This document shows, piece by piece, positions 47,921 through 63,083 of a stretch of DNA of 64,000 nt. The notes beneath the pieces were generated by a model. That model had not been told where the DNA came from. It did no database searches and worked only from the letters and a program-made list of their open reading frames with translations. The DNA comes from an uncultured Granulosicoccaceae bacterium (GTDB lineage Bacteria > Pseudomonadota > Gammaproteobacteria > Granulosicoccales > Granulosicoccaceae), in contig CAKZUP010000013.1 in NCBI GenBank assembly GCA_937922945.1, forward strand, positions 1-64,000, in the 5' to 3' direction. The first letter of the stretch is position 1. Every line of letters starts with the position of its first letter. A program made the position numbers and the translations under genes.

Positions 47921-47998
47921 GATACTACAAAGACTCTACGATACTGAAAGGCTCTACAACACGTAAGAGCCTCACAGTATCATAGGGCTCTTATGTTG
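47921..47998. repeat. Tandem repeats forming two alternative hairpins
   Basis: GATACTACAAAGACTCTAC (47921-47939) and GATACTGAAAGGCTCTAC (47940-47957) are near-tandem copies. The second pairs with AGAGCCTCACAGTATC (47966-47981) in a 16-base stem with two mismatches. An overlapping alternative pairs CAACACGTAAGAGCC (47957-47971) with GGCTCTTATGTTG (47986-47998). It sits between two convergent genes and reaches the permease stop codon. Confidence 0.7.
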
Positions 47999-48758
47999 CA
48001 GGCCGTTCCGCCCAACCAGCGAATATTTTCTCCAGCATCACAACAACGTAGTACAACAAAATACCCATAAACGCCAAAGCAATCAGTACGGCAAACATTA
48101 GCGGATAGTCTGAGTTTATCTTTGCGCTGTCGAATAGATGCCCCAAACCACGCCCGTGCGGTTCGATGATCTCCACCAGGTTGGTTCCAATAAAAGCAAG
48201 TGTTACCGCAACCTTTAACGCACCAAAAAATTCAGGTAGCGTTTTAGGTAACGCAATTTTACGAAATATGGTTAGCTTGGACGCACCAAGCGCGCGAAGA
48301 ATATCGCGGTACTCCGGTTCCAGCGTGCTAAGTCCAATCGACACCGATACTGCAATAGGAAAAAACGAAATCATAAACGCCATTAAAATGGTATTCATGT
48401 TGTGTTGACCAACAAACATCAAGGCAATAATCGGCACCACGGTTGCCTTGGGAATAGCATTAAAGCCGACAAGCAATGGATACAACCCGTCACGTATCCG
48501 TTTCGACATACCCATCAGCAAACCGATTAACGTGCCAAATACAATCGATAAAGACAAGCCAGCAATGGTTCGCCACAGTGTTTGCCAACCGTATTCAAAA
48601 AACAAATGCTTGAACTTCCAGAATGCTGGCCAGATATCAGTAGGCGATGCCATTTTGTAGTTCGGCCACTGATTCACCCAAACAAGCAGTTCCCACAGCA
48701 GCAGAAAGACGACAATGGCGAACAGCGGAATGAGAACTTTCCCAATGTTTGTGTTCAT
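47991..48758 (-). CDS. ABC transporter permease (NitT/TauT/THI5 type)
   Basis: 255 residues with about six helices. The EAA loop is YRDILRALGASKLTIFRKIALPKTLPEFFGAL. This subfamily (SsuC/TauC/ThiX-like) serves small anionic or heterocyclic solutes. Its start overlaps the ATPase stop by four bases. The substrate is open. Confidence 0.88.
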   Translation of the reverse strand: MNTNIGKVLIPLFAIVVFLLLWELLVWVNQWPNYKMASPTDIWPAFWKFKHLFFEYGWQTLWRTIAGLSLSIVFGTLIGLLMGMSKRIRDGLYPLLVGFNAIPKATVVPIIALMFVGQHNMNTILMAFMISFFPIAVSVSIGLSTLEPEYRDILRALGASKLTIFRKIALPKTLPEFFGALKVAVTLAFIGTNLVEIIEPHGRGLGHLFDSAKINSDYPLMFAVLIALAFMGILLYYVVVMLEKIFAGWAERPAT

Positions 48759-49543
48759 GACGCTACCGATACAGTATTGCCTTGGGCAACCTGAATTTGT
48801 TTGCGTAACTCTGCCAACATTTCAGTCGCTTTTGGGGAGTAGAGATCTTCGAGCGTACGCTTGGCTGGCATGTCTACCTTAAGCACGTGCTGCGCGTGTG
48901 CAGGCCTCCCCGACAAAACAATGACCTCGTCGGCCAAGAACACGCTTTCACGAAGATCGTGCGTAATCAACAAAGCGGTAAACGGCTCTTGCTCGCGCAA
49001 GGTATGCATGGTTTGCCACAGGTCTTCGCGAGTAAACGCATCTAATGCACCAAAGGGTTCATCTAGAATAACAACATCGGGTTTGTGTACCAGCGAGCGA
49101 CATAACGACGCACGTTGACGCATTCCACCCGAGAGTTCCGACGGGCGCTTATCTTCAAAGCCATCGAGTCCAACCAGTGAGAGAAGAAAACGAGCCCGCT
49201 CCTCCTGCTGTTTGATCGGCATACTGCCACTGACTATTTCCAGTGGCAACATCACGTTTTTCAGTATCGATCGCCATTCAAGCAGAACCGGGTTCTGAAA
49301 CGCCATGCCTACCGTTGAACGCGGGCTAACCACCCGCTCGCCGTGTAACCATACCTCACCTGCATCGGGAATGAGCAGGCCAGCGATGAGTCGAGTCAGG
49401 GTAGATTTACCGCAACCCGAAGGCCCGACAACGGCTGTGAACTGGCCTTCTTCAATAGACAAGCTCAGAGAATCAAGCACGGGCAACTGCCCTGTCGCCG
49501 TGCTAAAGGTGTGGCTAACTGCCGACAATTGAATTAAAGACAT
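48755..49543 (-). CDS. ABC transporter ATPase (NitT/TauT/THI5 type)
   Basis: 262 residues. Walker A GPSGCGKSTL, Q-loop FQNPVLLEW, signature LSGGMRQRASLCRSL, Walker B VVILDEPFGALD, and switch His in LLITHDL. LSGGM with FQNPVLLPW/LLEW is characteristic of the SsuB/TauB/ThiZ group. Middle gene of the binding-protein, ATPase, permease operon. Confidence 0.9.
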   Translation of the reverse strand: MSLIQLSAVSHTFSTATGQLPVLDSLSLSIEEGQFTAVVGPSGCGKSTLTRLIAGLLIPDAGEVWLHGERVVSPRSTVGMAFQNPVLLEWRSILKNVMLPLEIVSGSMPIKQQEERARFLLSLVGLDGFEDKRPSELSGGMRQRASLCRSLVHKPDVVILDEPFGALDAFTREDLWQTMHTLREQEPFTALLITHDLRESVFLADEVIVLSGRPAHAQHVLKVDMPAKRTLEDLYSPKATEMLAELRKQIQVAQGNTVSVAS

Positions 49544-49590
49544 TTAATTTTTGCTTGCGTAAAGAAAATGCGAAGAAAAAGCGCTGCGCT

Positions 49591-50646
49591 CTATTTCAAG
49601 CTGAAATTGCCTTCGGGTAAGTACTTATCAGTAAAGTATAAGTCAACGTTAGGCTCGCCTTTGAATTCATAATTCTTGGCCAGCTGTTCAATGGCCGCAC
49701 TCATGCGTTCGCTATCGATACCGCCCATACCATTTGCCAGCACGTATTCAGTGCGCACATTGGCGTCAATAGCGAGTTGAAGGCGGCGCTGCTCTAACGC
49801 AACATCGGAAGCCGGATTGCGCTGACCAACTGCTGCTGCGCCCATTGCAGGGTCGGCAATAACATCGTTCCAACCAGCTGCAACAGCTGCCAGAAATCCT
49901 TCAATAACCTGAGGGTTTGCGTCGGCATATTCTGTGTTGACGATAATGGCGTTGCCATAAAGACTCAAGCCATGGTCGGCCATAAGAATCACTGAGATAT
50001 CATCTTCTGGAACACCCAAGCGGACCAGATTCAGAAAGGAAGAAAAAGAGAACCCTGTTACCGCATCCACTTTACCTTCAGCAAGCATCGGTTCGCGGGT
50101 GGGGAAGCCAACAGGTTCGACTTTGACTTTGTCCATATCGATTCCGGCAGCTTCCGAGAACGCAGGGAATTGCGCCCAGGCACCATCCGGTGGTGGCGCA
50201 CCCAGCGTGCGTCCTTCAAGATCTTTGGGCGCTGATACGCCTTGCGATTTCCGTCCGACAACCGCAAACGGTGGCTTGTCGTACACCATCATGACAGCCG
50301 TTACCGGTGCACCCGGGTTCTGATCAAGAAATTGTATTAGTGAATTAATATCAGCAAACCCAACAGGAAACGCACCTGTTGCGACTTTTGGAATAGCTGC
50401 AAGCGAACCCTGACCAGCGCTTATTTCAACGTTGAGATCGGCTTTGGCAAAATGTCCGTTGTCAATAGCGGCGAAAAAGGCGGCCGAAGGACCTTCGAAT
50501 TTCCAGTCAAGCGCGAAAGATACATCGGTGGCTGCAGAGGCTACCGTGGAGCAGGCCAACAGGGCCGCCGCACAGATTAGTTTGGTTTTACCGCTAGCTA
50601 ACGCGGTAGCGCTGGCTAATTTAGGAATATATAGAGTCATAGTCAT
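49591..50646 (-). CDS. ABC transporter substrate-binding protein (NMT1/THI5-like)
   Basis: About 351 residues from ATG 50646; the in-frame upstream codons to 50709 overlap promoter sequence. The signal peptide ends at VASAATD. The mature start FALDWKFEGPSAAFFAAIDN is the PF09084 opening (DWxxxGxxAxF). Relatives bind thiamine precursors, pyrimidines, nitrate-like or sulfonate ligands; the sequence alone does not choose. A promoter-like TTGTTC-N18-TATGAT lies upstream. Confidence 0.85.
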   Translation of the reverse strand: MTMTLYIPKLASATALASGKTKLICAAALLACSTVASAATDVSFALDWKFEGPSAAFFAAIDNGHFAKADLNVEISAGQGSLAAIPKVATGAFPVGFADINSLIQFLDQNPGAPVTAVMMVYDKPPFAVVGRKSQGVSAPKDLEGRTLGAPPPDGAWAQFPAFSEAAGIDMDKVKVEPVGFPTREPMLAEGKVDAVTGFSFSSFLNLVRLGVPEDDISVILMADHGLSLYGNAIIVNTEYADANPQVIEGFLAAVAAGWNDVIADPAMGAAAVGQRNPASDVALEQRRLQLAIDANVRTEYVLANGMGGIDSERMSAAIEQLAKNYEFKGEPNVDLYFTDKYLPEGNFSLK

Positions 50647-50732
50647 CAGGATTTTCTTTGTGGTTGGTGAGATTAGCTCGAAACTACTCGCAGTCGGTGC
50701 ACTCCACATGCCAATAGATAAAAGGCTTAATA

Positions 50733-53968: not shown

Positions 53969-54973
53969 CTAAGTAAAACGTAACACCTGCCCAAGCCCTT
54001 GTTGCTCAGCTTTCATCCAGATAGCATGACCCAGCGCAATATCGGTGGTACTTAAGCCACGATGCCAAAACAGATTCGTTTCGTCGTTGCTTTCTCTGCC
54101 GGGTTTTAAGCCAGCGACAATATCCCCCAGCTCTGCGTGAATATTTTCCTGTGTAACTTTGCCTTCATCGACGTGCCGCCGAAGTGAACCAAACGGTTTA
54201 CCGGGTGCACACTGGCCCCAGTCATCGACAACCACTTTTGTCATAATATCAGTGAGAGAAAACTCGACGGCACTCATGGTGCCGTAAGGCACAATAAGCG
54301 CACCCGGCTTTATCCACTCAGTGAGTAGGTGTGGATGGGGTTCGGGTAGCCTGGACGCCTCGACTAGAATATCTGCGTCCTTTAAACAATCATGCCAATT
54401 GGATGTGACAGTTATGTCTCTGTTCAAATCGTTGCTTAATTTTTCGGCAAACGCCTTTTGACTCTCCGGTCGCTTGGAATGCACGCGTATTTCAGATAAG
54501 TCGAAAAGATGGTTCAGTAATCGAACGTTCCAATAAGCGGTACCGCGCGCACCAATGTGACCAAGCACCTTACTATCAACTCTGGCCAGATACTTCGCAC
54601 CCAAGGCCGTCATGGCACCGGTTCGCATGTCGGTTATCGCGCTGGCATCGATAATCGCCTTGGGCGCTCCGGTTTTAGGACAGAACAAAGTAAGTACGGC
54701 CAGCTCGGAAGGCAAATCCTGTTTGTAGTTATCGACAAAATCACCAACGACTTTTACACCAGCCACACCCAAGGTATTAACCACACCCCGCAGCACATTG
54801 AAGTGACCTTTATCAGACGATTCAGGAACCAAATGAACCCGCGGCTCTATCACCGTATCGCCAGTGCCCTGTGCACGCAAGGCAGATTCAACCGCATTTA
54901 GAATCTCATCGTTGGTTAATGCCAGTGCGCGTATATCCACACCGTTGATATAGCAAAGGCTTAATTCTTTCAT
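53969..54973 (-). CDS. Ornithine cyclodeaminase / mu-crystallin family protein
   Basis: 334 residues of the OCD/mu-crystallin fold, NAD(P)-dependent enzymes including ornithine and lysine cyclodeaminases, ketimine reductases and alanine dehydrogenases. VAGVKVVGDF holds the usual substrate Lys, IDASAITDMRTGAMTALGAKYL is the family signature, and VLGHIGARGTAYWNVRLL the nucleotide loop (G-x-x-G-x-x-G altered to GARGTA). The start overlaps the stop of the HAL-like gene by four bases. Its pairing with a lyase homologue that lacks MIO suggests a joint pathway; the substrate is unknown. Confidence 0.82.
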   Translation of the reverse strand: MKELSLCYINGVDIRALALTNDEILNAVESALRAQGTGDTVIEPRVHLVPESSDKGHFNVLRGVVNTLGVAGVKVVGDFVDNYKQDLPSELAVLTLFCPKTGAPKAIIDASAITDMRTGAMTALGAKYLARVDSKVLGHIGARGTAYWNVRLLNHLFDLSEIRVHSKRPESQKAFAEKLSNDLNRDITVTSNWHDCLKDADILVEASRLPEPHPHLLTEWIKPGALIVPYGTMSAVEFSLTDIMTKVVVDDWGQCAPGKPFGSLRRHVDEGKVTQENIHAELGDIVAGLKPGRESNDETNLFWHRGLSTTDIALGHAIWMKAEQQGLGQVLRFT

Positions 54974-56472
54974 AGCACAAACGCACCCCCGTTGATTATA
55001 TTTTCCAGTTGTTCAAACTCCCCACCCAGCGCACGATCATCGGTCAACGGTGCTGAAACGGCGCGAACCTCTTGATATATTTTGCGTAATGCTGGCGCAA
55101 TGGATTCTGATAACTCGCGAAGGTCAATTGCTTGTGCTGCAACCACCGCTTCTATTGCGCAGAGTTGACGCAAACGATGCGCTATGGGAAACAAATTTTT
55201 AGCAGGAATTGCCGCATGCGTTACGACATCTTCAAGCCCGTCGGCTGATATGCCAGGATAAATAGGCGGCGCGGCAGACAAGTGCGCAATCTCTGCAAAC
55301 AATGCCTCGGCAGTTTTCATCACAGGGCCAAGACCTGCCCCTGCTGCACCCACAAAAGACAAACCGTTTGAAAGGCCCGAGAATCGTTCAACCAGCAATT
55401 TGTTTATACGCGATACCTGCAAAGCAGCCAGATGAACGAATGCCTGCGATGTCGCATTTAGCGTAACGCTGATATGTGGTGGTAAATAGCCTCCATTGGA
55501 TAACACTTCTTGCGAATCCACTATAACCGCAGGGTTATCAGAAGCCCCGTTTATCTCAGCTAACAATGCCTCTTTAGACACATTCAGCATCGCCCGTACC
55601 GAACCATGCACTTGAGCAATATTGCGAATACTCAATGGGTCCTGCAAACGACGTGCTTCTCCTGAATTAAACAATGCTGAGCCGTTTAGTCTTGCTCGCA
55701 GCCCACTTGCAGCATCCCATTGGCCAGGTTGAGGACGAAGCGCTAACACACGTTCATCCAGTGGAGAGAGGTTCGCACGAAAGCCTTCCATTGTAAGAGC
55801 CGCACAGGTTTGTGCTGTTTCAAATACATTATCCAATTCCACCCAACCAAGCGAGGCCAACCCGGCCGTGATCGTGGAGTGTGATACCAGTGCAAGTCCT
55901 TCACGAGGTTGTGGTTGATAAGGATCAATGCCTGCATCGCGCATTGCGTCACGGGCGTTAACCACACTGCCATCCGTTAAAGACATTCGGCCCTCCCCGA
56001 TCATAGCCAAACCAAGCGAGCCACCCCAGCAAAGGTCGGCAACACCAATCGTACCAGTCTCTGGAATAACAGGAATAAGATCGGCATTGATGCACGCAGT
56101 TAAATGAGTCGCAAGTTCAGGTCTAACACCTGCAGCACCGATAAGTAACGTGTTTATTCGGACCGCTACGCCCGCACGCACCCACTCGCGGTGTAATGGA
56201 TCACCGACGCCGTGTGCTCTGCCTCGAATAGTGTTTATTGAAAACGCATCGATAGACTCATCTGGCATTGCCTGAGTTACACGCGGCCCCAACCCAGTCG
56301 TGACACCGTAAACGGGCACACGATGCCTGATCGCGTCTTCAATGACTTTGCGGGCATCAGTCATGGTGGCCAGTGCTGTGGGTTCAATAAGAATACCCGC
56401 GCCTTTGGCTATGGAAAAAATAGCGTTGGGGGTGAGGGTTTTTCCGTTAAGGGTTATAACGTCTGGTTTCAT
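54970..56472 (-). CDS. HAL/PAL-fold protein lacking the MIO triad
   Basis: 500 residues of the histidine/phenylalanine ammonia-lyase fold. Shared features are VPVYGVTTGLGPRV (Y55, the catalytic Tyr loop), LQDPLSIRNIAQVHG and EINGASDNPAVI. Where HAL has GASGDLAPL, this protein has GVADLCWGG (143-151): the Ala-Ser-Gly that cyclises to MIO is absent and one residue is deleted. The NGT of HAL (EGLALLNGT) reads EGLALVSHS, the Tyr of QDPYS is Leu, and the His of RSHAxGVG is Arg. It therefore cannot work as a standard ammonia-lyase. It forms an operon with the OCD-family gene. Confidence 0.85.
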   Translation of the reverse strand: MKPDVITLNGKTLTPNAIFSIAKGAGILIEPTALATMTDARKVIEDAIRHRVPVYGVTTGLGPRVTQAMPDESIDAFSINTIRGRAHGVGDPLHREWVRAGVAVRINTLLIGAAGVRPELATHLTACINADLIPVIPETGTIGVADLCWGGSLGLAMIGEGRMSLTDGSVVNARDAMRDAGIDPYQPQPREGLALVSHSTITAGLASLGWVELDNVFETAQTCAALTMEGFRANLSPLDERVLALRPQPGQWDAASGLRARLNGSALFNSGEARRLQDPLSIRNIAQVHGSVRAMLNVSKEALLAEINGASDNPAVIVDSQEVLSNGGYLPPHISVTLNATSQAFVHLAALQVSRINKLLVERFSGLSNGLSFVGAAGAGLGPVMKTAEALFAEIAHLSAAPPIYPGISADGLEDVVTHAAIPAKNLFPIAHRLRQLCAIEAVVAAQAIDLRELSESIAPALRKIYQEVRAVSAPLTDDRALGGEFEQLENIINGGAFVL

Positions 56473-56623
56473 GTTCGATTAGTTAAAACTGATTCGTTGA
56501 ACAGATTCAGCACACATTAGCATTAATGTCATGGGATACAACAATCGTCAGTAAGACTTTTAATGCTTTGAGTGAATTTACCAGGGAGGGAGAGTACTGC
56601 GGAGGTTGAATCAACGCAACTCA

Positions 56624-56644
56624 GCGCACCGATTATCGGTGCGC
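56624..56644. promoter_or_regulatory. Perfect 21-bp palindrome upstream of the HAL-like/OCD operon
   Basis: GCGCACCGAT-T-ATCGGTGCGC, ten-base arms around one base, about 150 bases before the HAL-like start. It has no T-run, so an operator is more likely than a terminator. Confidence 0.5.
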
Positions 56645-56732
56645 CAAGTTACTGTTCTTGCCCAATTTTTTATATTGCTATTCTTTATCGCTATCCTTTA
56701 TTGCTAAAAAAAAGGGCACAATTTCTAACAGA

Positions 56733-58466
56733 TTACTGCGACCATTGCTTGATTAACTCATCATACGCGATGGTTTCGCCTTGCGGCTTCTCGTTGTCAA
56801 GTTTGGCCTTTGCGCCACCCTTACCCAACCATTCCGACGGGTCTTTAGGCTCATTTAAACGAGGGCCACAACCGCCGTACACTTGCGCACCTTCATCGGC
56901 GGCTTGCATACGAGACATAACCAAATCCATCTCTTCTGCCAAACGGTCCATAGCCTGCTGAGGCGTAAACGCACCAGAGTTTACATCACCGATTTGTTGC
57001 CACCAGATTTGCGCAAGTTTTGGGTAATCAGGCACGTTGATACCAGTTGGCGACCAACGAACTCGATCGGGTGAACGATAAAACTCAACCAACCCGCCCA
57101 ACTTGGGGGCACGCTCAGTAAAGGATTCATGCTGCACTGACGAGTCACGAATAAACGTCAAACCAACATGGCTCTTTTTAACATCAACCGTTTTAGACAC
57201 TGCAAATTGCGCATACAACCAGGCCGCCTTGGCACGATCGGTTGGTGTGGATTTCAGAATAGTCCACGAACCCACATCCTGATACCCAACCTTCTGACCT
57301 TCTTGCCAGTATGGTCCGTGTGGGGACGGCGCCATACGCCACAATGGATTGCCCTCGTCGTCAACGGTGTTGTTACCTTCAGATTTTGGCGCAACCATGG
57401 ATGCGGTAAACGCTGTGTACCAGAAAATCTGCTGCGCAACGTTACCTTGACTTAATGCGGGCAGCGACTGATAGAAGTCATAGCTGGCAGCCCCTGGAGG
57501 TGCGTAAGCTCTTAACCATTCATCCCACTTACGAATGGCGTAAACGGCCGCAGGACCATTGGCAGCACCACCACGAGAAACCGATGCGCCAGAAGGATTA
57601 CAGGAACCTTCCTCCATTCGGATACCCCATTCATCGATAGGAATGCCGTTTGGCTCACCCGGGCTACCGGCGCCTGCCATAGACAACCACGCATCGGTCA
57701 TTCGCCAACCCAGATCAGGGGCGCGCTTACCATAATCCATGTGTCCATAGATATCGACACCGTCGACCTGTTTTACATCGTTTGAGAAAAACTCTGCAAT
57801 GTCTTCATAGGCAGACCAGTTAACCGGCACACCCAGATCGTAACCGTACTTTTCTTTAAACGCCGATTTGAGATCTTCGCGATCAAACCAGTCTTTTCTG
57901 AACCAGTACAGATTAGCGAACTGCTGATCGGGCAATTGGTATAAGTCACCATCGGGTCCGGTGGTGAATTGCGTACCCATAAAATCATCCAGATCGAGCG
58001 TTGGCAGGGTAACGTCTTTACCTTCACCCGCCATGAAATCCGTCAGATTAACCGCAAGCTGCAAACGAGAATGTGTTCCGATTAAATCAGAATCGTTTAC
58101 ATACGCATCGTATAAGTTACGACCGGTTTGCATCTGCGTTTGTACCGCTTGAACCACCTCACCTTCACCCAGTATCTGGTGATTAACCTTAATACCGGTG
58201 ATTTCCTCAAACGCTTTAGTCAGCACCGTTGATTCATAAGTATGAGTTGGAATGCCCTCAGAGAGGACATTGATTTCAAGACCTTTAAACGGTTCAGCTG
58301 CATTGATAAACCATTCCATTTCAGCCTTTTGTTCATCCATACTGATGGATGATGGTTGAAATTCGTCAGTGATCCATTTCTCGGCTGCGGCCATATCCGC
58401 TGCGGCATAACCTGACGCAACGGTAAAAGCAGCAGCAACGAAAGATGCTACGAATTGTCGTTTCAT
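56733..58466 (-). CDS. glpV: Glycerol ABC transporter substrate-binding protein
   Basis: 577 residues with GGGAGG ahead of ATG. The signal peptide ends GYAAADMA. The protein is a large periplasmic sugar-binding type (LEINVLSEGIPTHTYESTVL, QILGEGEVVQAVQTQMQTGR, YQLPDQQFANLYWFRKDWF). Size, sequence and operon order match GlpV of the rhizobial glycerol transporter GlpSTPQUV. It ends the operon, separated from glpU by about 220 bases of AT-rich sequence with its own repeats, so it may be expressed more strongly than the membrane parts. Confidence 0.88.
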   Translation of the reverse strand: MKRQFVASFVAAAFTVASGYAAADMAAAEKWITDEFQPSSISMDEQKAEMEWFINAAEPFKGLEINVLSEGIPTHTYESTVLTKAFEEITGIKVNHQILGEGEVVQAVQTQMQTGRNLYDAYVNDSDLIGTHSRLQLAVNLTDFMAGEGKDVTLPTLDLDDFMGTQFTTGPDGDLYQLPDQQFANLYWFRKDWFDREDLKSAFKEKYGYDLGVPVNWSAYEDIAEFFSNDVKQVDGVDIYGHMDYGKRAPDLGWRMTDAWLSMAGAGSPGEPNGIPIDEWGIRMEEGSCNPSGASVSRGGAANGPAAVYAIRKWDEWLRAYAPPGAASYDFYQSLPALSQGNVAQQIFWYTAFTASMVAPKSEGNNTVDDEGNPLWRMAPSPHGPYWQEGQKVGYQDVGSWTILKSTPTDRAKAAWLYAQFAVSKTVDVKKSHVGLTFIRDSSVQHESFTERAPKLGGLVEFYRSPDRVRWSPTGINVPDYPKLAQIWWQQIGDVNSGAFTPQQAMDRLAEEMDLVMSRMQAADEGAQVYGGCGPRLNEPKDPSEWLGKGGAKAKLDNEKPQGETIAYDELIKQWSQ

Positions 58467-58522
58467 TGTTACCCTCCCACAAAGTAATAACTTAACTAAT
58501 TAATAAAATATTGCTCATAATG

Positions 58523-58548
58523 AAATATTGCCAATAAATATTGCCAAT
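58523..58548. repeat. 13-bp perfect tandem repeat upstream of glpV
   Basis: AAATATTGCCAAT occurs twice back to back (58523-58535, 58536-58548) in the AT-rich glpU-glpV gap. A CAATATTG follows at 58557-58564. The AATATTG core also occurs in the palindrome before glpS. Confidence 0.85.
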
Positions 58549-58684
58549 AAAAGCCGCAATATTGAAAAGCGCTACGATGAGCAAAGCGTTGCTTGGATAT
58601 GCTTACACCAAATAACAGGATCTTCGGCCAAGCACCGAAGTGTTATATAAAGCGATCAGACCCCAGTATGACTGTCTAATCTCA

Positions 58685-58969
58685 CTACACCCACCAAAAA
58701 ACAGCAAGTGCATAAAAAACGGCAACCACTGAACCCCACCATAGCGGTAAACTCGTAAGCCCCAGCCACGCGACGTGAATATAGGCACTGCCCAGCAGCG
58801 ATATAAACAGACGATCGCCTCGCGTTGTATCAAGACCAAGAATACCGTTGCGCGGACCGCCGCCAGGCCTTGCCAGTTCCCATACAAACATGGTGATCAA
58901 ACAGATCGCTATAAAGATAAAGAACGCACCGGTGTGCCAGGTCCAGGCCATCCAGGACAACGGTTTCAT
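58685..58969 (-). CDS. glpU: GlpU small membrane protein (DUF2160)
   Basis: 94 residues, DUF2160. Three hydrophobic segments: AFFIFIAICLITMFVWELA, LFISLLGSAYIHVAWLGL and VVAVFYALAVFWW, with RPGGGPRNGILGLDTTRGDR between, the family signature. It is a membrane component of the glycerol ABC transporter of unknown function. It sits in its normal place between glpQ and glpV. Confidence 0.9.
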   Translation of the reverse strand: MKPLSWMAWTWHTGAFFIFIAICLITMFVWELARPGGGPRNGILGLDTTRGDRLFISLLGSAYIHVAWLGLTSLPLWWGSVVAVFYALAVFWWV

Positions 58970-59071
58970 TGTGCATCCTCTGTCATATCACTCACCCTAT
59001 TCAATTGAGCCCTACACATCCGCAAACGGTTTAATCGCACTTTGAGCACTGTGGTTGTCACACACCATGTA

Positions 59072-59872
59072 TTAAACCCGCCCTAGAGCAAAGCCTTTGG
59101 CAATGTATTTCCGGACAAACCAAATAACGATAGCGCCCGGTACAATCGTTAATGCACCCGCTGCCGCAAGCAATCCAAGCTCATAACCCGAGGTTGACGC
59201 AGTTCTTGTCATTACTGCCACAATGGGCTTCGCCGATACCGATGTCAGGTTCTTCGCCAACAACATTTCTACCCAACTAAACATAAAGCAGAAAAATGCG
59301 GTAACACCGATTCCTGCTGCAATGAGCGGCATAAATATCTTGACGAAAAAGTGTGGAAAAGAGTACCCATCGATATACGCGGTTTCATCAACTTCTCGAG
59401 GCACACCAGACATAAACCCTTCTAAAATCCAGACAGCAAGCGGCACGTTAAACAAGCAATGCGCTAGCGCCACCGCCAGTGGCGTATCAAACAAGCTCAT
59501 CGCTGAGTACAGTTCGACGAAGGGCAACACGAATACCGCCGGTGGAGCCATCCGGTTGGACAGCAACCAGAAGAACAGATGCTTATCACCCATGAATCGA
59601 TAACGAGAAAACGCATACGCCGCCGGCAGCGCGAACGATACCGATATCACGGTGTTCATCAACACATAAGTAATAGAGTTAATATAACCGTTGTACCAGG
59701 TGGGATCGGTAAAGATGGTTTTGTAGCTTTCCAGCGTAAAGCTTTGTGGATACCAACTAAACCCACCCAGAATTTCGTTGGTGGTTTTAAAACTCATGTT
59801 TAGCAGCCAGTAGATAGGCAACATGAGAAATAGAATATACACAAAAACAACGATTATTTTAGTGCCCTTCAT
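59072..59872 (-). CDS. glpQ: Glycerol ABC transporter permease
   Basis: 266 residues, six helices, MalG-type permease. EVDETAYIDGYSFPHFFVKIFMPL is the EAA loop. The start overlaps the glpP stop by four bases. Together with GlpP it forms the membrane channel. Confidence 0.88.
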   Translation of the reverse strand: MKGTKIIVVFVYILFLMLPIYWLLNMSFKTTNEILGGFSWYPQSFTLESYKTIFTDPTWYNGYINSITYVLMNTVISVSFALPAAYAFSRYRFMGDKHLFFWLLSNRMAPPAVFVLPFVELYSAMSLFDTPLAVALAHCLFNVPLAVWILEGFMSGVPREVDETAYIDGYSFPHFFVKIFMPLIAAGIGVTAFFCFMFSWVEMLLAKNLTSVSAKPIVAVMTRTASTSGYELGLLAAAGALTIVPGAIVIWFVRKYIAKGFALGRV

Positions 59873-60738
59873 GACTCATCTTCTCCGCGCATCATCAGCG
59901 TGTAGAAAACCCAACAAACCAGTAAGGTCATTAAAAAGTACAAAATACTCATGGCTGCAGCAATACCCAAATTGAATTCGCCAATGGCTGCTTTTACCAA
60001 GTCAATTGAAAGGAATGTGGTGGAGTTACCTGGACCACCGCCTGTCAGCACAAAAGGCTCGGTGTATATCATGAATGAATCCATAAACCGAAGCAGCAAC
60101 GCGATAATGAGAACGCGCTTCATTTTGGGCAGCTGAATATACCTGAATACTGCGAAGCGCCCTGCACCATCAATTTTGGCTGCTTGATAATACGCATCCG
60201 GTATCGATGATAAGCCTGCATACGCCAGCAATACAACCAACGATGTCCAGTGCCACACGTCCATCAGCACAACCGTAAACCACGCCGCAACCGGTTGTTG
60301 GGTGTAGTTATAATCGAACCCAAGCCAGTTCAAACCAAACCCGAGCAATCCGATATCGGGTAAAGCAAAAATATTCCACATGGCGCCAACCACATTCCAA
60401 GGAATTAATAGTGGCAATGCCATTAATACAAGACACACCGACACCCACGGACCGGTTCTCGGCATGGCCAGCGCAACCATCACACCCAGCGGTATTTCTA
60501 TTGCAAGAATAATTGCCGTGAACAGAAACTGACGACCGAGTGCGCCATGAAAACGGGGAGATGACAGCACTTCCTGATACCACTTTGTACCTTCAAAGAA
60601 AAACACACCTGGGCTGAAGGTGTCTTGCACTGAATAGTTAACCACCGTCATCAGCGGAATGATGGCGTTCATTGCCACTACCAGCAACACTGGCAGAACC
60701 AGAAACCATGCCCGCTGATTGACCGTCTTTGCAACCAT
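59869..60738 (-). CDS. glpP: Glycerol ABC transporter permease
   Basis: 289 residues, six helices, MalF-type permease. The EAA loop reads YYQAAKIDGAGRFAVFRYIQLP, and FTGGGPGNSTTFLS-like sequence (LTGGGPGNSTTFLSI) follows. Its first base overlaps the glpT stop. Confidence 0.88.
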   Translation of the reverse strand: MVAKTVNQRAWFLVLPVLLVVAMNAIIPLMTVVNYSVQDTFSPGVFFFEGTKWYQEVLSSPRFHGALGRQFLFTAIILAIEIPLGVMVALAMPRTGPWVSVCLVLMALPLLIPWNVVGAMWNIFALPDIGLLGFGLNWLGFDYNYTQQPVAAWFTVVLMDVWHWTSLVVLLAYAGLSSIPDAYYQAAKIDGAGRFAVFRYIQLPKMKRVLIIALLLRFMDSFMIYTEPFVLTGGGPGNSTTFLSIDLVKAAIGEFNLGIAAAMSILYFLMTLLVCWVFYTLMMRGEDES

Positions 60739-61841
60739 CAGGCAACACCACCGGCACTAACAGGCACGCCTTCTATCCGATGATCGTTTGCATACACACT
60801 GCTGCGTTCAGGATCGCAAACAATGCCGATGTTATAACTCGGCACTGGCTCCCCTTCTGCGAGCAGAACGTTTAATACTTGCTTGCCCAGATGCACTTTG
60901 GCAATTCGGTGACGCCCCACATCGTCCACGCGTTCAACGGATACTGGAACCCCGTACTCTGTCGACTTGGCAAAGCGAACAAACTCCGGACGCACACCTA
61001 GTTCGAGCTTGGCACCAGCAGGCGGCTCGTAATAAAACCGCAAGGGAATACGATGATTGTCCACGATTGCCGCATTGCCTTCTATTTTACAAGGCAACAC
61101 GTTCATTCCCGGCGAGCCGATAAAGTAACCCACAAACGTATGACTGGGCCTTTCAAACAACTCTTCGGGGGTACCGATTTGAACCACTTCTCCCTCGTAC
61201 ATAACAACCACTTTGTCGGCAAACGTCAGTGCTTCAGTTTGATCGTGCGTGACATAAATCATGGTGTGTTTAAAACGCTGATGCAGCTCTTTGAGTTTGG
61301 TACGTAGCTGCCATTTCATCTGAGGGTCGATAACGGTGAGTGGTTCATCGAACAATATGGCGTTCACATCGTAACGAACCAAACCACGACCCAGAGAGAT
61401 CTTTTGTTTTTCATCAGCCGTGAGTCCTTGCGCACGACGATTCGCTTTGTCACTCAACTCAAGCGTTGCAAGCATATCCTGCACGCGCTTGTTCACTTCA
61501 TTTCGTTCTACACCACGATTCAATAGTGGAAAAGCAAGGTTGTCTGCTACCGTCATGGTGTCGTAGATAACTGGAAACTGAAATACCTGTGCGATGTTAC
61601 GTTGCTCAGGCGATCGATTAGTGACATCGGTATCATCAAATTGAATGCGACCCTGAGATGGTGCCAATAGCCCGGATATAATGTTCAGCAAGGTGGTCTT
61701 GCCGCAGCCTGATGGCCCAAGTAACGCATAGGCACCACCGTCATCCCAACTGTAGTCCATGCTTTTCAGTGCATAGTCTGCAGGTTCTGCCGGGTTCGGG
61801 TAGTACGAGTGAGCCAACTTATCGAGAGTTATCTTAGCCAA
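60738..61841 (-). CDS. glpT: Glycerol ABC transporter ATPase
   Basis: 367 residues. Walker A LLGPSGCGKTTLLN; the signature is degenerate (LTADEKQKISLGRGL where LSGGQ is usual), Walker B AILFDEPLTVID, and switch His YVTHDQTEAL. A TOBE-like C-terminal domain begins near 240. The degenerate signature in one of two ATPases is typical of the GlpS/GlpT pair, which work as a heterodimer. Confidence 0.88.
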   Translation of the reverse strand: MAKITLDKLAHSYYPNPAEPADYALKSMDYSWDDGGAYALLGPSGCGKTTLLNIISGLLAPSQGRIQFDDTDVTNRSPEQRNIAQVFQFPVIYDTMTVADNLAFPLLNRGVERNEVNKRVQDMLATLELSDKANRRAQGLTADEKQKISLGRGLVRYDVNAILFDEPLTVIDPQMKWQLRTKLKELHQRFKHTMIYVTHDQTEALTFADKVVVMYEGEVVQIGTPEELFERPSHTFVGYFIGSPGMNVLPCKIEGNAAIVDNHRIPLRFYYEPPAGAKLELGVRPEFVRFAKSTEYGVPVSVERVDDVGRHRIAKVHLGKQVLNVLLAEGEPVPSYNIGIVCDPERSSVYANDHRIEGVPVSAGGVA

Positions 61842-61927
61842 TACGCTACACCCCTTACCGTACTAAGCCGATTACTGGCAACTGGATATTGTTGGTTCTG
61901 TTCCATTGAGTAAGTAGTTGTGTTGTA

Positions 61928-61952
61928 CTTAGCTGAGTAATACTCAGCTAAG
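61928..61952. other. Perfect 25-bp palindrome between glpS and glpT
   Basis: CTTAGCTGAGTA-A-TACTCAGCTAAG, twelve-base arms around one A, in the 132-base gap between the two ATPase genes. It could form an RNA hairpin within the operon message (stability or attenuation) or be an operator. Confidence 0.6.
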
Positions 61953-61973
61953 CTGAAATTGCCTGCGCTGTAC

Positions 61974-63083
61974 TCACCCATGATGTGCTTGTACGGGTTG
62001 TTCAGGTTGGTATTGAGTTGGCGCATGCACCAGCGACTCATTGCTATTGAATAAATACACACTTCTGGGGTCTATATAAAGCGTAATCGTTTCGCCTGGA
62101 TTAACGCGATGAACGCCGTGCGTAAGCACCACCCATCGGTTACCACCGGCATCAACATGAACGAACGTTTCCGAGCCGGTAATTTCACTGGTGCCAACCA
62201 CTGCCTGCAACGTAACGCTGTGTTTTTCAGAAGGTGCAAGCGATACATGATGTGCCCGCACTGCAGCTGTGTAGGCACCATCGCTTAAGGCTCCAAAATC
62301 AGCCGCAGTAACCGGCAATGAAAAAAGCGGACTTGAAAACGAATCACCCGACTTTTGCAGCGCAATCGTATTGAACGGTGGGTCTGAAAACGTTTGTGCA
62401 GTCGACAGTGTTTGCGGTCGGTTATACACATCGATGGTGCTGCCGAATTGCGTTAGCCGACCCTCGCTTAATGTCGCTGTTTGTCCACCAAGCAACAACG
62501 CCTCATGCGGTTCAGTTGTCGCATAAACAAATACAGCGCCGGTTTCGGCAAATATCCGAGGCAACTCAATCCGCAATTCTTCGCGCAGCTTATAGTCAAG
62601 GTTGGCAAGCGGTTCATCGAGTAGAACCAATTCGGCTTGCTTTACCAGCGCACGTGCAATGGCCGTACGCTGCTGCTGCCCACCCGATAATTGTAAAGGC
62701 GTTCTGTCAAGAAATTCGGTTAGGCGCAACAGCTCAGCGGCCTCTCGCACACGGGTGTCGAGTGTTTTCTTATCAACACCTGCCAGACGCATTGGCGATG
62801 CGATGTTTTCGTAGACGGTAAAGCCGGGGTAATTAATGAATTGCTGGTACACCATAGCAACGTTGCGGGAACGCACCGGTTTGCCGAGCACGCTTACGTT
62901 ATCTATCAGAACATCACCACTTGTGGGTCGATCGAGCCCTGCCATCAAGCGCATCAGTGATGTCTTACCCGCCAAGGTAGGCCCTAACAGCACGTTAAGG
63001 GATCCGCGTTCGAACTGAACAGACACATCGTTGATGTGCAAATCCTTACCGACTACTTTGCTGACATTTTTCAGTTCAAGCAT
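61974..63083 (-). CDS. glpS: Glycerol ABC transporter ATPase
   Basis: 369 residues. Walker A GPTLAGKTSLMRL, signature LSGGQQQRTAIARAL, Walker B LVLLDEPLANLDYKL, and a switch region that reads VYATTEPHEALLL in place of the usual THD, so the His is missing. This complements GlpT, whose signature is degenerate but His is intact: a heterodimer with one full set of site halves. First gene of the operon; a TTGACA promoter and a palindrome lie upstream. Confidence 0.88.
   Translation of the reverse strand: MLELKNVSKVVGKDLHINDVSVQFERGSLNVLLGPTLAGKTSLMRLMAGLDRPTSGDVLIDNVSVLGKPVRSRNVAMVYQQFINYPGFTVYENIASPMRLAGVDKKTLDTRVREAAELLRLTEFLDRTPLQLSGGQQQRTAIARALVKQAELVLLDEPLANLDYKLREELRIELPRIFAETGAVFVYATTEPHEALLLGGQTATLSEGRLTQFGSTIDVYNRPQTLSTAQTFSDPPFNTIALQKSGDSFSSPLFSLPVTAADFGALSDGAYTAAVRAHHVSLAPSEKHSVTLQAVVGTSEITGSETFVHVDAGGNRWVVLTHGVHRVNPGETITLYIDPRSVYLFNSNESLVHAPTQYQPEQPVQAHHG

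Follow-up and report, generated by a model that had tools for sequence, protein, structure and literature searches.

The window analysed here, a 64,000-nucleotide stretch of contig CAKZUP010000013.1 from an uncultured Granulosicoccaceae bacterium, encodes a 500-residue protein of the histidine/phenylalanine ammonia-lyase (HAL/PAL) fold that, judged from its sequence, lacks the electrophilic 4-methylideneimidazole-5-one (MIO) cofactor and is unable to form one. The lyase belongs to a clade that also holds the MIO-less enzyme ergothionase, and its gene overlaps that of an oxidoreductase of the ornithine cyclodeaminase (OCD)/mu-crystallin family. Sequence, phylogeny and gene neighbourhood give about an even chance that it is a MIO-independent, trimethylamine-type C–N lyase of the ergothionase branch, acting on a histidine-derived betaine in an OCD-aided route to urocanate and the Hut enzymes.

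Loss of the MIO triad

The lyase gene and the two sites on which its classification turns lie on the reverse strand:

54970..56472, reverse strand: MIO-less HAL/PAL-fold lyase, 500 residues (PF00221; one-residue-short loop, K386, L280)
56032..56055, reverse strand: codons of GTIGVADL, residues 140–147, where the HutH site reads GSVGASGDL (coordinates computed from the open reading frame)
55315..55317, reverse strand: codon of K386, a lysine in common with ergothionase by alignment

The open reading frame begins with ATG and runs free of stops through 500 codons. Its product matches the Pfam family PF00221 (Lyase_aromatic) with 374 bits across positions 1–466 of the 466-position profile, indicating a full-length HAL/PAL fold, while scoring under the cut-offs of all eight NCBIfam models matched; the HutH model TIGR01225 gives 318.8 bits, below its curated cut-off of 539.15. 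The loop reads G140-T-I-G-V144-A145-D-L147 (GGT ACG ATT GGT GTT GCC GAC CTT), placing V144 and A145 where the MIO-forming Ala-Ser-Gly would be and leaving it one residue short relative to 31 aligned MIO-type sequences with GASGDL. No Ser, Thr or Cys able to dehydrate is left at the triad site. Because the loop is one residue shorter and without Ser, MIO formation is predicted to be impossible.

Additional substitutions surround this site. Arg85, Ser197 and Leu280 of the window lyase occupy positions that hold His, Asn (NGT) and Tyr (QDPY), respectively, in 31/31 MIO-type sequences, while Tyr55 (VYGVTTGLG), Gln277, Arg283 and Glu414 are retained; positions 55, 85, 197, 277, 280, 283 and 414 have presumed roles in HAL. 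A preliminary description of this DNA had read GVADL in place of GASGDL, the His-to-Arg, Asn-to-Ser and Tyr-to-Leu replacements and the preserved VYGVTTGLG motif directly from the sequence, and the alignment confirms each of them, with no Ala-Ser-Gly seen elsewhere in the loop. It had passed over Lys386, a residue that none of the 31 MIO-type sequences carries.

The GVADL loop recurs in four further genomes (G010, G022, G005 and L031), whose proteins together with that of the window share 56–75% identity; L031, from Chromatiales MAG-68 RZ, is the sole relative that came from a single-sequence scan of genome contigs. Over the ten pairs, the proportion of synonymous differences (pS) is 0.74–0.81, with synonymous sites near saturation, against a nonsynonymous proportion (pN) of 0.18–0.31, which indicates that the gene is under purifying selection, as the preliminary description had supposed of an intact gene. 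The possibility it had raised of a sequencing error in the GVADL codons is removed by the recurrence of the loop. That sequencing or annotation mistakes disguise an ordinary MIO enzyme is next to impossible, given the same loop in five genomes, the same shortening in 35 clade members and the intact frame. The same organism encodes, on a different contig (G000:C43; L001), a HutH with the GASGDL loop.

Phylogeny and signature residues of the MIO-less lyases

The tree comprises 74 sequences in all, HAL-fold proteins from fetched loci and ergothionase, with partial and short proteins and the duplicate L094 set aside; for ultrafast bootstrap (UFBoot) support the columns of six motifs were removed, leaving 442 columns. 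Of 36 sequences with a one-residue-short loop (G-x-x-[DE][LI] type), 35 form one clade with UFBoot 91, and FastTree support is 0.941 with the motifs included. The remaining sequence, the divergent L033, is not part of this clade, and UFBoot drops to 43 if L033 and its relative L112 are included. The clade comprises the 6s7j ergothionase, the ergothionase-like proteins of Polaromonas (L079) and Paracoccus (L081, 301 bits to 6s7j), L011 and 31 window-type sequences, the last forming a subclade of their own (UFBoot 90; FastTree 0.984), so that the window lyase stands beside the ergothionase branch and not inside it. A family tree had been proposed at the outset as a check on whether MIO-less sequences group together, and they do so even without the motif columns; their grouping with a MIO-less ergothionase supports the earlier suggestion of a repurposed fold with a non-MIO activity.

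Two residues accompany the short loop. Leu occupies position 280 in 33/35 clade members, including 29/31 window-type sequences (Ile or Val in the other two), and Lys occupies position 386 in 34/35, namely all 31 window-type and all three ergothionase-type members, with His in L011. Eight further ergothionase-side proteins (L116–L118, L126–L130) all combine the short loop with Leu280, six of them with Lys386; Ala replaces it in the other two, which are the ergothionase-type proteins of Sinorhizobium meliloti and S. sojae. Among 239 genomes, an ergothionase-type query matched once. In alignment A1, which contains 21 chosen MIO-less lyases (L011 not among them), Tyr55, Gln277, Arg283, Lys386 and Glu414 are invariant. 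Position 85 is Arg in 26/31 window-type lyases and His in the other five (L038–L042).

Several other HAL homologues with altered loops were encountered. The L011 gene (L030:9333-11815, genome G023) encodes the GASDL homologue of the MIO-less clade with His at 386, and a fatty-acid-desaturase-like reading frame, identified by eye, lies ahead of it in the same orientation, overlapping it by 4 bp. A second MIO-less type, GSVGY---L, has lost three residues (L043, L044, L047, L055, L062 and L098:14478-16112; GSAGY in L055) and retains His85, NGT and Glu414 in 6/6; urocanase and HutI lie nearby in L098, L101, L102 and L103, not in L104 or L105. Two very divergent homologues, L094:8324-9865 (GHGGAGEI) and L112:5315-6781 (GNTSAGEI), carry Asn at 414, the former overlapping an OCD orthologue of 68% identity. 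A further MIO-less variant, GCADI, occurs in L127, L128 and L129 beside thiourocanate-hydratase-type genes. On S. meliloti pSymA, the ergothionase-type lyase L116:11923-13563 (GSVGQADM, Ala at 386) carries the annotation hutH, and its neighbourhood includes an ABC transporter and an annotated dimethylsulfoniopropionate lyase gene.

The OCD-family partner and its linkage to the lyase

The partner gene lies directly downstream of the lyase:

53969..54973, reverse strand: OCD/mu-crystallin-family partner, 334 residues (PF02423)

Its reading frame overlaps the end of the lyase gene by 4 bp (54970–54973). The protein matches PF02423 with 174.5 bits against a gathering cut-off of 24, yet reaches the cut-off of none of the 13 NCBIfam models matched, the best being ala_DH_arch (189.1 against 409.15 bits). 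A conserved orthologue, 57–87% identical, is the usual neighbour of the window-type subclade. Orthologues occur in 84/72,556 plasmid records at E 1e-100 (82 with 60–80% identity; 69 from Rhizobium), and in 11/398 genomes of a phylum sample, 4/369 of a class sample and 9/57 relatives, the genome of the window being counted in each of these three samples.

Linkage with a conserved OCD neighbour, which the preliminary description had asked about, proves real: an OCD gene lies in the fetched locus of 24/31 window-type lyases, specifically of 24/26 with Arg85 versus 0/5 with His85, and two of the latter show no OCD gene within 20 kb either (L091, L100). The Arg85 lyases without a local OCD gene are L006, whose genome G005 carries one elsewhere, and L009 (G011, 63% complete). 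In G005 the two genes lie on different contigs, the lyase by itself and the OCD gene beside TRAP and DUF1445-like genes, which is the G016 arrangement minus the lyase that G016 carries there. G027 and G035 have an OCD gene without an adjacent lyase, and G011 a lyase without a close OCD gene.

Viewed from the OCD side, 31 stretches of 6–26 kb, which are not independent since several come from one genus, were scanned with local profiles. A window-type lyase is present in 16, an ergothionase-type lyase in three (L079, L081, L118), a MIO-type HutH as the sole lyase in three (L084, L086, L096) and the divergent GHGGAGEI homologue in one (L094); the other eight hold no lyase.

Gene content of the clusters

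The OCD stretches contain OpuAC-type betaine-binding proteins (7/31), HutC-like regulators (10/31 by phmmer at E 1e-10, one of them weak), true urocanase (5/31), as sulfur genes YeiH-like exporters (4/31) and SsuD- or NtaA-type flavin monooxygenases (3/31), and a PhnD-like protein (14/31), the last without a signal peptide by eye and with one Cys retained in the eight copies inspected. In L098, urocanase, HutI and a BCCT betaine transporter lie beside the lyase–OCD pair, and in Paraburkholderia PGU19 the genes for OCD, true urocanase and an ergothionase-type lyase (GSMGEADI) are consecutive. On plasmid pRL12 of R. johnstonii 3841 (L067), CoA transferase, short-chain dehydrogenase/reductase (SDR), MaoC, HutC and lyase form one run of overlapping genes, an arrangement that fits an enoate (unsaturated acid) as product. 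The gene annotated hutH in this locus (L067:8030-17747) encodes a GAADL MIO-less lyase, making the histidine ammonia-lyase annotation doubtful.

A five-step ergothioneine pathway was reportedly described by Beliaeva in 2021, and an ergothioneine sulfonate pathway is said to have been described by Yan in 2022. We take 7ned, listed in the PDB as urocanate hydratase, to be the thiourocanate hydratase of this five-step route, and DUF917 is presumably another of its members. The PGU19 hydratase scores 930 bits to urocanase 1uwl versus 614 to 7ned, while Burkholderia arboris pairs an ergothionase-type lyase with a 7ned-type hydratase (812 versus at most 612 bits) and has no OCD gene there. Nine 7ned-type hydratase clusters were compared, comprising that of B. 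arboris (L117) and eight other plasmid records above 60% identity (L122–L129). DUF917 and a hydantoinase-type gene are present in 9/9 of them and an OCD or PhnD-like gene in 0/9; conversely, DUF917 or a 7ned-type hydratase occurs in 0/31 OCD stretches.

Urocanase accompanies the OCD gene at the genome level. Within the organism's own family (36 genomes) it is present in 9/9 OCD-positive versus 7/27 OCD-negative genomes (Fisher 1.2e-4), and in the phylum sample in 11/11 versus 146/387 (2.9e-5).

Three assignments of cluster genes were rejected. The PhnD-like protein as a thiohydantoin desulfurase was dropped because DUF917, not PhnD, is the regular partner in thiourocanate-hydratase clusters; PxpBC in L027 was not borne out, one gene being a LysR regulator and the other having no NCBIfam match; and a 555-residue gene beside the Paracoccus OCD gene matches TPR proteins, not a lyase.

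Proposed function and competing explanations

The reaction, leaving group, substrate class and residue roles set out here are proposals drawn from the comparisons above. The window lyase would most likely act on hercynine, ergothioneine or oxidised ergothioneine as candidate substrates, expelling a group that already leaves well (a quaternary ammonium, trimethylamine for example) and yielding a urocanate-type enoate. As trimethylammonium, unlike NH3, leaves without activation, the electrophilic MIO would not be needed. Tyr55, Lys386 and Glu414 may perform the acid/base work, with Arg283 as the probable carboxylate holder. The OCD-family oxidoreductase would serve the same pathway, which would end in ordinary urocanate and the Hut enzymes; its own step, perhaps a reductive desulfurisation, is conjecture.

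Several observations pull against this proposal. The window pair stands beside an unrelated-looking ABC transporter, and the genome gives no match at E 1e-5 to the PhnD-like protein of the other clusters. The ergothionase motif NRGVGWNKD/TVGVGxNKD is absent, the window lyase reading TTGLGPRVT, so the substrate may differ; Arg stands at the position of HAL His83; and Lys386 is not universal, given the His of L011 and the Ala of the two Sinorhizobium proteins. The OCD gene does not require an adjacent MIO-less lyase (8/31 stretches without any lyase, 3/31 with only a MIO-type HutH). The urocanase statistics ignore genome size and shared ancestry, and 7/11 OCD-positive genomes of the phylum sample belong to family f219; G000, the window's own genome, enters both samples and contributes a urocanase gene that is a fragment at the end of a contig; of the four OCD genomes of the class sample, the statistics cover G000 alone; and urocanase is local in just 5/31 stretches. 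The rhizobial clusters L065 and L067 hold no local urocanase, a CoA/beta-oxidation route accompanying the lyase instead, and the thiourocanate-hydratase clusters also contain OpuAC-like (1/9), monooxygenase (1/9) and HutC-like (2/9) proteins.

The strongest rival, to which we give a minor yet appreciable share of belief, is a MIO-independent lyase of a non-histidine quaternary amine, such as another amino-acid betaine, with the Hut association incidental. The rhizobial pairing of lyase with CoA transferase, SDR and MaoC, not urocanase, would suit it, as would the replacement of the His at the imidazole end of HAL by Arg in 26/31 window-type lyases and the OpuAC-like proteins, which presumably import various betaines. 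Against it, several OCD clusters contain urocanase, HutI and regulators of the HutC type, and all OCD-positive genomes of both samples have urocanase.

Within the proposed histidine-betaine route, a shortcut in which two enzymes convert ergothioneine (or its sulfonate) to urocanate is improbable as a specific version: the lyase would expel trimethylamine and the OCD enzyme would act as a reductive desulfurase or desulfonase, delivering an NADPH hydride to C2 of the imidazole-2-thione (or 2-sulfonate) and thereby expelling sulfide or sulfite. Such a shortcut would explain the urocanase co-occurrence, the mutual exclusion of DUF917 and OCD in the examined clusters, and the YeiH exporters and flavin monooxygenases in some of them. 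The same pattern would follow if the substrate were hercynine, with sulfur playing no part, and this weighs on the desulfurase version. To our knowledge, the OCD family includes no reductive desulfurase or desulfonase reaction.

A different elimination, for example loss of a beta-substituent, giving an imine or enamine that the OCD enzyme reduces directly, is more improbable still. The 4-bp overlap of the two genes is in keeping with it, as are the imine reductases and alanine dehydrogenase among OCD relatives of solved structure and the VHSKRPES segment after the nucleotide-binding strand, which suggests NADP(H). Ergothionase, the closest MIO-less relative of known reaction, removes an amine without an imine, and the rhizobial enoate-handling genes fit an acrylate product; both speak against it.

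A non-catalytic, dead lyase with a binding, sensor or regulatory role is very unlikely. The absence of MIO and of several residues that are catalytic in HAL would agree with such a role, and a binding role was one option in the preliminary description, whereas the invariance of Tyr55, Gln277, Arg283, Lys386 and Glu414 across the A1 MIO-less lyases, the lysine in common with an active enzyme and the purifying selection oppose it.

Significance

Some MIO-less lyases of the HAL/PAL fold, including examples on Rhizobium plasmids, carry the annotation 'histidine ammonia-lyase' though predicted to be incapable of the cofactor; they can be told apart by a signature of one-short loop, QDPL and usually K386. 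In marine and soil bacteria, the OCD-linked subclade suggests a pathway that handles quaternary histidine compounds. It also offers a directly testable case of how a cofactor-dependent fold may work once its cofactor is lost. The shortcut, if true, would give ergothioneine catabolism a second route into Hut, replacing thiourocanate hydratase and DUF917, and would bring a new reaction to the OCD family.

Flanking genes in the window

56473..56732, no strand: 260-bp gap that separates the lyase from the ABC-transporter gene upstream (spacing, sigma-70 scan)

None of the sigma-70-like sites of the scan falls in this gap. The upstream ABC transporter was rejected as part of the lyase–OCD unit, other genes adjoining the pair in L023, L024, L031 and L066. 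It occupies 56733–63083 with two ATPases, two permeases and a 577-residue binding protein, an arrangement that we take to resemble a rhizobial glycerol transporter. A second ABC transporter at 47991–50709 comprises an ATPase, a permease and a binding protein and is nitrate/taurine-like by its reading frames.

Comparison with known systems

Published titles and abstract beginnings in open access yielded no literature on the OCD-linked lyase group, though subscription papers on ergothioneine and ergothioneine sulfonate, the 2022 work of Yan foremost, may overlap. Among the titles that searches of the open literature listed, none deals with an OCD gene in the breakdown of ergothioneine or hercynine; one cyanobacteria review contains both search words. 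Some of the thiourocanate-hydratase/DUF917/hydantoinase clusters hold ergothionase-side MIO-less lyases, namely L117, L126 (GEADI) and L127–L129 (GCADI).

MIO-independent activity on the HAL/PAL fold is already known, and the window lyase is thus not without precedent: in its statement on ergothionase, PMC13405746 (2026), citing Maurer 2019, describes this trimethylamine lyase as lacking the MIO cofactor. Like ergothionase (6s7j, 6s7q), the window lyase combines the HAL/PAL fold with a MIO-less, one-residue-short loop, which aligns ungapped with GEGDI of 6s7j, and with QDPLS, Lys386, Ser197, Tyr55 and Glu414. The two share a clade, yet the window lyase belongs to its own subclade, with 29–30% identity to the two ergothionase-type proteins in A1; unlike ergothionase, it carries Arg, not His, at position 85 and is encoded with an OCD-family gene. 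Like HutH (6v6h, 7tqr, 1b8f), it retains the fold, the length and the Tyr, Gln, Arg and Glu residues, and it differs from HutH in lacking Ala-Ser-Gly, in R85, S197 and L280 and in scoring under the curated HutH cut-off.

The partner belongs by sequence to the family of 1omo, an archaeal alanine dehydrogenase, and 6t3e, a pyrroline-2-carboxylate reductase, the Lys of its GVKVV segment aligning with the Lys of 1omo. Unlike the known OCD members, it constitutes its own tight orthologue group, often beside MIO-less lyases. Collectively, the MIO-less fold has its precedent in ergothionase, and the new part is the OCD-linked sister subclade of MIO-less lyases.

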